This document shows, in pieces, positions 8,949 through 30,481 of a stretch of DNA of 38,330 nucleotides. The DNA lies in the NCBI GenBank assembly GCA_903928175.1, contig CAIYQA010000180.1, positions 1 to 38,330 of the forward strand, given 5' to 3'. The DNA is from an uncultured Spartobacteria bacterium. Lineage in GTDB: Bacteria; Verrucomicrobiota; Verrucomicrobiia; Chthoniobacterales; Chthoniobacteraceae. The notes under the pieces were generated by a model. That model ran no database searches. It was not told where the DNA came from and saw only the letters and a list, made by a program, of their open reading frames with translations. The stretch's first letter is position 1. Each line of letters begins with the position of its first letter. Position numbers and translations under genes: made by a program.

Positions 8949-8954
8949 GAGGAA

Positions 8955-9006
8955 GGCAGTGCAACTGCCGGGATAATTACGTTCCAAAGTTCAACTTTGG
9001 AACGAG
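8955..9006. repeat. Half copy of CTCGTT hairpin element
   Basis: GGCAGT-GCA-ACTGCC (8955-8969), spacer, CGTTCCAAAGTT-C-AACTTTGGAACG (8980-9004) then AG; 6 nt after the helicase stop. Confidence 0.8.
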
Positions 9007-22418: not shown

Positions 22419-23858
22419 TCAGTGGGAAATTGTCACGAGGGTGCCGATATCGACTTCCCGGAAGAGGCGCTGCGCGGAACCGAACGGCAGCCGGATGCAA
22501 CCATGCGAATCCGGGTAGCCGGGCAGGACTCCCGCGTGCATTCCGAAATCGCGGCAACTCATCCGCAAAAAATAGGGCATGTAAGCGGGATAAAGCGTGG
22601 AGCGGTGCATCCGGTCTTTGTCGGTGACGACAAACTGCCCGGTGGGGGTCGGAAATCCCGGTCTTCCGGTGGAGACGGGCGTGACGAGCGCGACCTTGTC
22701 ATCCTTGTACAGCACGGCTTGTTGCCGGCCGATTGAGATGTTGATGCGCATCCGCTGATCCTCCGGGCGCGGACTTTTCCCCAGCAAAACCTGGAGCATT
22801 TCGGGCGATGCGTCCCGGCGCGCAGCCAAATCAATGGCGGTCATTTTATAGCGCTTGGTGGAGGCGCTTCGTTTCGCGCCGTATTGCAGCAGGGCTTGGA
22901 CACATTCGATGCGTCCTGTCGCCGCCGCCAGCATCAACGGAGTCATGCCGGATTCCGTCTCCAAATATTCCCGGGTGCTGCGGTCGCCGATCAAGCGCGA
23001 AAAAGATTTGTCCACCGGACTGTTGAGCGGGGTATTCGGGTTGGCTCCGCATTCCAGCAGGAGGGTGAGCAGGGGGTAATTTCCCCAAGCGACGGCATAG
23101 CCGAGGAGCGGTTGCCGCGTGGTTTCCAAGGTGGGCGGGCTTTGGTGATTGACGATCAGCGCGCGAATGAACGGCTTGTTTCCCAGCAGTAAAGCGGTGA
23201 AGAGCGCCTCACGCGCCTGGGGACTCCATTGCGCCGGGTGCTCCGTGCGCAGGATCGGTTCGATCACGTCCAGCTCGCCTGTGTCCAGCGCGTGCAGCAG
23301 CGGTGTCGCGCCGTCACAACAAGGGCAGTCCACCTCCGCTCCATGGGCAATCAACCATTCCACTGTGGGACCCGATTGCGCCAAGATCGCATAATCGAGC
23401 GCCGTGTGTGCGAGCGGATCCCTTTGATTGACATCCGCCCCCTCGCAAATGAGCCGTTCCATTTCCGCCAGATCCGCTTCCTGCGCTGCCCGCATCAAAG
23501 GAGTCACGCCATCTGCATCAGGTGCATTGGGGTCCAGCGGTGGCTCGACGATTTGCACTTGGAGCGACCCTGTTTGCTGCTTTAGCGGAGGGAGCGGCAA
23601 TCGAATCTCGTTGCGATTCGGGACGGGGGTGGGACTGGCTTGCGGCTGGAGCGGCGCGATTTCAGGTTTTGCGGGGAGATTGGGGGAATGCTCAAGGACC
23701 GGAGGCGGTCGCAGGGCGTGCTGCGCCCCGGCTTCGCGCTGCGAGTCGGGCATCTCTAATCCCAGCCAGTGCACCAGCCCATTTGTCAGGAGCGCCAAGA
23801 GGCAACCGATGACACCGCCGACAACCCACGCCGCCAACCTCGTTCCAGATATCCCCAC
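22419..23858 (-). CDS. TM-anchored ankyrin-repeat plus L,D-transpeptidase (YkuD) fusion
   Basis: N-terminal TM; ankyrin repeats (GVTPLMRAAQEADLAEMERLICEGADVNQRD); C-terminal MHAGVLPGYPDSHGCIRLP catalytic motif. Confidence 0.9.
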   Translation of the reverse strand: MGISGTRLAAWVVGGVIGCLLALLTNGLVHWLGLEMPDSQREAGAQHALRPPPVLEHSPNLPAKPEIAPLQPQASPTPVPNRNEIRLPLPPLKQQTGSLQVQIVEPPLDPNAPDADGVTPLMRAAQEADLAEMERLICEGADVNQRDPLAHTALDYAILAQSGPTVEWLIAHGAEVDCPCCDGATPLLHALDTGELDVIEPILRTEHPAQWSPQAREALFTALLLGNKPFIRALIVNHQSPPTLETTRQPLLGYAVAWGNYPLLTLLLECGANPNTPLNSPVDKSFSRLIGDRSTREYLETESGMTPLMLAAATGRIECVQALLQYGAKRSASTKRYKMTAIDLAARRDASPEMLQVLLGKSPRPEDQRMRINISIGRQQAVLYKDDKVALVTPVSTGRPGFPTPTGQFVVTDKDRMHRSTLYPAYMPYFLRMSCRDFGMHAGVLPGYPDSHGCIRLPFGSAQRLFREVDIGTLVTISH

Positions 23859-23947: not shown

Positions 23948-24136
23948 CTCGTTCCCAAGCTCCAGCTTGGGAATGTGTTTGTCTGCGAGGCTCCAGCCTC
24001 GAAAGCGTGGCGAGAGGTGGAATTGAGGAGTTTCACTCCCGCTCCGTTTTCATGTGTGAAGCGGTTGTGCTTCCACGGTTTGCGAAGCTGGAGCTTCGAA
24101 GACACTGGCATTACCAAGCTGGAGCTTGGTAACGAG
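23948..24136. repeat. CTCGTT four-hairpin element, full copy A
   Basis: Hairpins 23952-23973, 23987-24000, 24084-24097, 24111-24132; outer ends CTCGTTCCCAAGCT / AGCTTGGTAACGAG. Confidence 0.88.
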
Positions 24137-24143
24137 GGGAAAC

Positions 24144-24251
24144 GGGTGGATCGGCCGCTCCGCGGGCGATTTTCCAACGCACATCGAGCGCAGCGAGCCG
24201 ATTTTTTGCGACGCCCACCCCCGGAATCGCGCGCGGAGCGCACGATCCACC
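24144..24251. repeat. 108-bp MITE-like element with about 26-bp terminal inverted repeats
   Basis: GGTGGATCGGCCGCTCCGCGGGCGAT (left) vs reverse complement of the right end GGTGGATCGTGCGCTCCGCGCGCGAT, 23/26. Confidence 0.8.
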
Positions 24252-24262
24252 TTCTCTGCCGC

Positions 24263-30159: not shown

Positions 30160-30160
30160 T

Positions 30161-30291
30161 GCAATCTGAAACTCAGGAACTCAGGAAAAAATCAGGAAGG
30201 CGGGAAATGAAAACCCTCAGGAACTCAGGAACTCAGGAAAGAGTTTTTTTTGGATTTTCTTCGTGCCTTCGTGCCTTCGTGCCTTCGTGTG
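30161..30291. repeat. AGGAACTC octamer array followed by CTTCGTGC octamer array
   Basis: ctcaggaactcaggaactcaggaaag (to about 30243), then tcttcgtgccttcgtgccttcgtgccttcgtgtgag. Confidence 0.88.
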
Positions 30292-30311
30292 AGATTTTCA
30301 AGTTTTTCGGT

Positions 30312-30481
30312 CTCGTTCCCAATCTCCTGATTGGGAATGCAAGTGTCTTGGAAACTCTGTTTCCCGAGCCTGCCATGCCATCAGCGCTTTGTATTATGCA
30401 ACGCGCAAGCTCTCTCTCCGCGCGCAGCGAAGCTGGAGCTTCGGAAACAAGTGCGTTCCCAATCTGGAGATTGGGAACGAG
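30312..30481. repeat. CTCGTT four-hairpin element, full copy B
   Basis: Hairpins 30316-30337 (TTCCCAATCTCCTGATTGGGAA), 30350-30364, 30428-30443 (CGAAGCTGGAGCTTCG), 30456-30477; ends CTCGTT/AACGAG. Confidence 0.88.

Follow-up and report, generated by a model that had tools for sequence, protein, structure and literature searches.

The locus at 23948-24136 raises the question of what kind of element is built from hairpins whose stems differ in sequence and yet stay complementary, and of what would move such an element. It lies in the 38,330-nucleotide stretch of DNA analysed here, referred to as the window. In the initial annotation it was described as a four-hairpin element with relatives at 30312 and 8955, in which the variation between stems indicated selection for structure, or replication through hairpins, rather than for primary sequence.

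The element, referred to as copy A, consists in order of CTCGTT, a TTCCCAAGC..GCTTGGGAA hairpin, a CGAGGC..GCCTCG hairpin, a core, the mirror-image hairpins, and AACGAG. Copy B, beginning at 30312, is laid out alike, and the coordinates and layout first given for both copies are correct to the base. The relative near 8955 is also present, but it is a lone two-hairpin unit on the minus strand rather than a third four-hairpin copy. Common to all three is a unit of about 57 nt composed of the CTCGTT foot, hairpin 1, a TTGTC-containing spacer, and hairpin 2, and copies A and B each comprise two such units facing each other. The functional unit is the pair of hairpins, and two units in inverted orientation make up the four-hairpin element, as listed below.

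23948 to 24136, no strand assigned: copy A, a REPIN-like element of two convergent units, AGCTCC subtype (fold z = -10.8)
23948 to 24004, plus strand: left unit of copy A, with the CTCGTT foot, hairpin 1 (23950-23975), the spacer, and hairpin 2 (23986-24001)
24080 to 24136, minus strand: right unit of copy A, with hairpin 2 (24083-24098), hairpin 1 (24109-24134), and the foot
30312 to 30481, no strand assigned: copy B, a REPIN-like element with outer hairpins of the ATCTCC subtype and inner hairpins of two differing types (fold z = -7.65)
30312 to 30367, plus strand: left unit of copy B, with hairpin 1 (30314-30339) and hairpin 2 (30350-30364)
30425 to 30481, minus strand: right unit of copy B, with hairpin 2 (30428-30443) and hairpin 1 (30454-30479)
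8950 to 9006, minus strand: lone unit, GTTGAAC subtype, with hairpin 1 (8980-9004) and hairpin 2 (8955-8969), directly 3' of the SNF2 gene (fold z = -7.84)

Folding as single-stranded DNA in comparison with shuffled sequences gave z-scores of -10.8 for copy A, -7.7 for copy B, and -7.8 for the lone unit, which excludes a chance origin of the hairpins. At minimum energy copies A and B each fold into a single long hairpin in which both inverted units take part, so the four-hairpin form is one of two possible shapes, while the lone unit folds into two hairpins. All three are intergenic, the lone unit standing right behind the SNF2 stop and copy B separating two permease genes. The surroundings hold repeats of other kinds. 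Copy A is adjoined at 24140-24256 by a second palindromic repeat (GGTGGATCG..CGCTCCGCG..CGATCCACC), a similar piece lying to its left, and about ten copies of this repeat with 90-93% identity occur in the sister genome G001. The gap ahead of copy B (30160-30311), absent in its entirety from G001, is filled by the short tandem words CTCAGGAA and CTTCGTGC. The minus strand at 22419-23858 encodes a predicted protein with ankyrin repeats fused to an L,D-transpeptidase (YkuD) domain.

Searches of the 3.6-Mb draft genome containing the window revealed a large family of related units, not isolated unrelated palindromes. Copy A gave 74 blastn matches, four of them full-length with 87-100% identity, and a covariance model built from 27 units recovered at least 115 distinct units, spread over 56 contigs; the count is a lower bound, as the lone window unit itself scores under the model threshold. 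Alignment of 50 units resulted in a single anatomy: CTCGTT; hairpin 1, with a stem of up to 11 bp when the CG..YG of the foot is counted; a stretch of about ten bases that includes the conserved TTGTC; and hairpin 2, with a stem of 6-7 bp. In 88% of the units a pyrimidine adjoins CTCGTT on the outside. Close neighbours are convergent in 35 of 36 cases, the resulting REPIN-like elements spanning 139-202 bp, and copies of the AGCTCC subfamily retain 85-92% identity across the entire element both within and between species, so that the unit pair behaves as one short element, as in a REPIN. Intergenic places including L033:2330-2440 and L030:3466-3560 hold a further palindromic repeat (CTCACGCAAAG..CTTTGCGTGAG), which flanks several elements and is retained at the same site in G001. 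At L041 ~2488-2633 and L014 ~108-295 direct repeats of ~50-80 bp lie on either side of copies, a pattern such as duplication of the adjacent DNA around the element would leave. Neither the window nor the element had an Rfam match above threshold, hence no described RNA family, and the consensus unit had no match in a plasmid collection. A literature search for the letters of the repeat returned only papers that are unrelated judging by title, the letters apparently being primer sequences.

Compensatory change was counted on the subset of 27 units with four-base loops; the all-subtype alignment shifts three-base loops. In this subset 99.1% of the cells are paired, and 21 cells have changed on both sides, a count reached in none of 500 shuffles, for which the figure is 5.9. 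Kinship of the units weakens this control, but a slid-column control agrees with it. The claim that stems vary while remaining complementary thus held with more copies. The accompanying claim, that structure is selected instead of primary sequence, was wrong in emphasis: the CTCGTT foot, the TTGTC spacer, and the hairpin apex are all conserved within subtypes, and the subtypes track particular transposases.

Mobility, which the first reading had suspected, is supported by vacant orthologous sites in sister species. The site of copy A is empty in G001; that of copy B is empty in G001, G002, and G003, and in G001 both permease genes overlap there; a copy on contig C227 is missing at its orthologous site in G001. 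At the sites compared, each of which differs by more than the element, no base-exact vacant site, target rule, or target duplication was obtained. The transposase-carrying element on contig C485, described below, is missing from its orthologous site in G002, G003, and G004, with G002 and G004 carrying theirs elsewhere. Species of one genus differ, in other words, in their occupied sites, and this includes the transposase element itself.

As originally stated, the window encodes no transposase of the Y1 type searched for. A trans-acting candidate was found elsewhere: Y1_Tnp and protein searches of the genome located three RAYT family genes in all, one on C485 and a neighbouring pair on C466. 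Each of these loci, like the RAYT genes of sister genomes, is bracketed by inverted CTCGTT units, the first of which stops about ten bases ahead of the RAYT start codon, giving RAYT-carrying elements of 677-680 bp; the two on C466 (L094:2024-3603) are near-identical and stand in tandem, ~900 bp apart. The product is a 176-aa HUH/Tyr protein (REP_Tyr_transpos) that scores above the cut-off of NCBIfam REP_Tyr_transpos (NF047646). E. coli TnpAREP (4ER8) is its best sequence match and first structural match (E = 2e-8), the latter by Foldseek (4er8_A) with an AlphaFold2 model of one member of the family, at a pLDDT of 94. Residues H60, H62, Y137, N141, and P142, which make up the HuH motif and the catalytic Tyr in Y...NP, are invariant in 42 sequences. 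By every test made, the protein is a REP-associated tyrosine transposase (RAYT/TnpAREP), having the motifs, the TnpAREP fold, and, on either side of its gene, inverted hairpin units of which the genome contains many copies. An IS200/IS605 insertion sequence was rejected, the tyrosine motif being Y...NP and not Y...Q, the IS200 model scoring below cut-off, and only three genes being present in the genome.

In E. coli TnpAREP, according to the text of PMC6006769, residues E100, H101, and R104 contact the GTAG foot. In the alignment with 4ER8 these correspond to P122, Q123, and a variable residue, with W and Q retained. H121 and P122 are conserved in this RAYT family and would be candidate readers of the CTCG foot. 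The ATCTCC and GTTGAAC subtypes have a matching RAYT in the genome (C485, C466); for the AGCTCC subtype of copy A, no matching RAYT is present in the draft assembly, and matching genes are found in the sister genomes G001 and G002. Comparison of the core of the element with the RAYT gene, for derivation of the one from the other, gave 9-nt matches only, and the cores thus show no visible descent from the gene. Three further Y1 genes with a Y..NQ.EHH motif (C209, C198, and C482 at L030:6151-6492) lie between inverted multi-hairpin repeats of other types; the genes resemble subclass 1.2, which PMC6006769 lists as lacking REPs.

The association of unit and gene extends well beyond this genome. 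A scan of genome contigs returned 80 RAYT-family loci in more than ten phyla by record title, including Verrucomicrobia, Hydrogenedentota, Planctomycetota, Deltaproteobacteria (among them Geomonas), Nitrospiraceae, Nitrospinota, Cloacimonadota, KSB1, Bacteroidetes, Ignavibacteria, Gammaproteobacteria, and others. Such units flank 72 of the 85 RAYT loci examined, at both ends in 56, and the CTCGTT foot accompanies 97 hairpin-1 matches at RAYT ends across phyla. Seven genomes with this RAYT contain 9-141 model matches each, compared with none in 13 relatives without it, and among relatives the co-occurrence of unit and RAYT is 9/9 versus 2/48 (Fisher p = 6e-9), the two exceptions among the 48 being incomplete drafts (73% and 84%). 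Since the units bracket RAYT genes both in this genome and in more than ten phyla, RAYTs are likely the movers of the units.

The hairpin type also follows the transposase. Apices of hairpin 1 fall into the classes AGC-TCC, ATC-TCC, AAC-TCC, AGT-TGN, CGC-TC, and a few more, and the classes of the 5' and 3' hairpins of one RAYT gene agree in 51 of 56 cases, where shuffling predicts 12.8. Across the RAYT tree 18 changes of class are counted, compared with 36.4 for shuffled labels; in the Chthoniobacterales part the figures are 4 and 9.3. As the cross-phylum hairpin list was chosen for perfect stems, it is the variety of pair types in it, and not the pairing rate, that counts as evidence. Paired changes above the shuffled level together with a class that follows the RAYT tree indicate that complementarity is kept while the apex follows the transposase, and the tracking of particular transposases by subtypes means that the stem variation reads best as co-evolution of transposase and hairpin. 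This fits a study of three REP-RAYT pairs in which loop positions were decisive in one group (PMC8266576). Whether the family amounts to a pan-bacterial RAYT clade with a two-hairpin CTCGTT REP in place of GTAG, whose apex is a co-evolving specificity code and which supplies several mutually specific REP-RAYT pairs per genome, is a proposal with an even chance of being right.

Taken together, the elements are most probably (roughly 85%) non-autonomous mobile repeats of the REP/RAYT kind, in which the unit is the RAYT recognition site and the convergent pair a REPIN-like element. Linkage, co-occurrence, and vacant sites make it likely that the RAYT mobilises the pair, and the enzyme-encoding form is the same unit pair around a RAYT gene. 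The anatomy and copy number of the units, their convergent pairing, their linkage to and co-occurrence with RAYT genes, the agreement of hairpin types, and the differing insertions between species are observed here. Single-strand cleavage and transfer, the direction of copying, and the role of the apex are what we infer for the mechanism. Briefly, the RAYT, an HUH single-strand nuclease, would most likely bind the unit in its single-stranded state, such as on the lagging-strand template, and cleave near the foot through Tyr137, after which the element or a copy of it would be transferred to a new intergenic place. The apex (AGCTCC, ATCTCC, AACTCC, GTTGAAC, or CGCTC) would determine which RAYT recognises which repeat.

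A less likely explanation is that the RAYT has been domesticated and now processes or repairs single-stranded hairpins, the repeats having spread in the past and being mostly remnants. The genes are few (three, against more than 100 units), the subtype of copy A is without its RAYT in the assembly, and RAYTs are discussed as domesticated transposases in passages of PMC6006769 and PMC8266576. However, congeneric species differ in occupied sites, down to the transposase element, and full-length sisters of copy A share 87-92% identity with it, from which it follows that the spread is not ancient.

It is also rather improbable that the hairpins act chiefly as RNA, as terminators or stabilisers of mRNA ends behind genes, with mobility secondary. 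The hairpins would form in RNA too, and the position of the lone unit just past the SNF2 stop, of copy B between permease genes, and of all three copies outside genes would suit such a role. Against it, none of the three window copies has a T run 3' of its hairpins, no Rfam family matches, sister species lack copies at these genes, and the link to RAYT genes would be left unexplained. The least credible reading makes the elements MITEs belonging to a double-strand DDE transposon of the classical type with hairpin-rich ends: long terminal inverted repeats, short length, and high copy number are shared, but wherever a gene bracketed by these ends was examined it proved to be a Y1/HUH RAYT, and no target duplication was recognised.

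Read as a RAYT-mobilised repeat, the element closely resembles the REPIN/BIME elements that accompany RAYTs in E. coli, Pseudomonas, and Stenotrophomonas (PMC3116915, PMC2817692), which are also high-copy inverted pairs of short hairpin units, with the same units bracketing the RAYT gene and co-evolution of unit and RAYT. It differs in having a CTCGTT foot instead of GTAG, two hairpins per unit, and replacements at the GTAG-contacting residues. Assignment to the GTAG-type REPs was rejected, as the 97 hairpin-1 matches at RAYT ends carry CTCGTT and GTAG is absent among the feet listed. The element is accordingly a REPIN-like non-autonomous RAYT/REP element with an unusual REP.

The CGTC REPs, such as Neisseria dRS3, are described in the text of PMC3733652 as short hairpins with a four-base foot that form dimers and occur in several phyla. 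TGTC and CCTC are reported there as variants of the foot, and TGTC precedes hairpin 2 here. Those are, by the same description, single hairpins without a known transposase, whereas the present family has a CTCGTT foot, two hairpins, and a linked RAYT, and the CGTC type was rejected. TIRtrons (TIRYT), as outlined in PMC3733652, likewise place a tyrosine transposase gene between inverted repeats, at times double palindromes, with dimers elsewhere. According to the text of PMC6006769, however, most TIRYT belong to subclass 2.1 and carry an HTH extension at the C-terminus together with a GGGGWSAS repeat motif, in contrast to the ~177 aa and CTCGTT start found here.

Comparable too is TnpAY1 subclass 2.6 (RAYT group 5), described with 'atypical secondary structures'. 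Compared by description only, the motifs (NH.H, WQ, YIHNNP) and length (~177 aa) of the RAYT agree with Table 1 of PMC6006769, and the lack of a GTAG foot and hairpin copies elsewhere in the genome are shared. Subclass 2.6 is reported there mostly from Bacteroidetes, and its text description does not include a two-hairpin CTCGTT unit, although the two may be the same thing. By their published descriptions, subclass 2.6 (PMC6006769) and the double palindromic TIRs (PMC3733652) are the nearest classes, and parts of this family may have been seen before.

Experiments on REPs have dealt chiefly with the GTAG types found in a few proteobacteria, and the CGTC REPs have no known transposase. The CTCGTT family combines a two-hairpin REP with a linked transposase at high copy in more than ten phyla, including the cultured Chthoniobacter flavus and Geomonas. 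Through the 5'/3' agreement and tree concordance the family is a source of many natural pairs in which the reading of a DNA hairpin by a single-strand transposase can be tested, and the CTCGTT unit provides a simple rule, based on sequence, by which a common intergenic repeat can be annotated.
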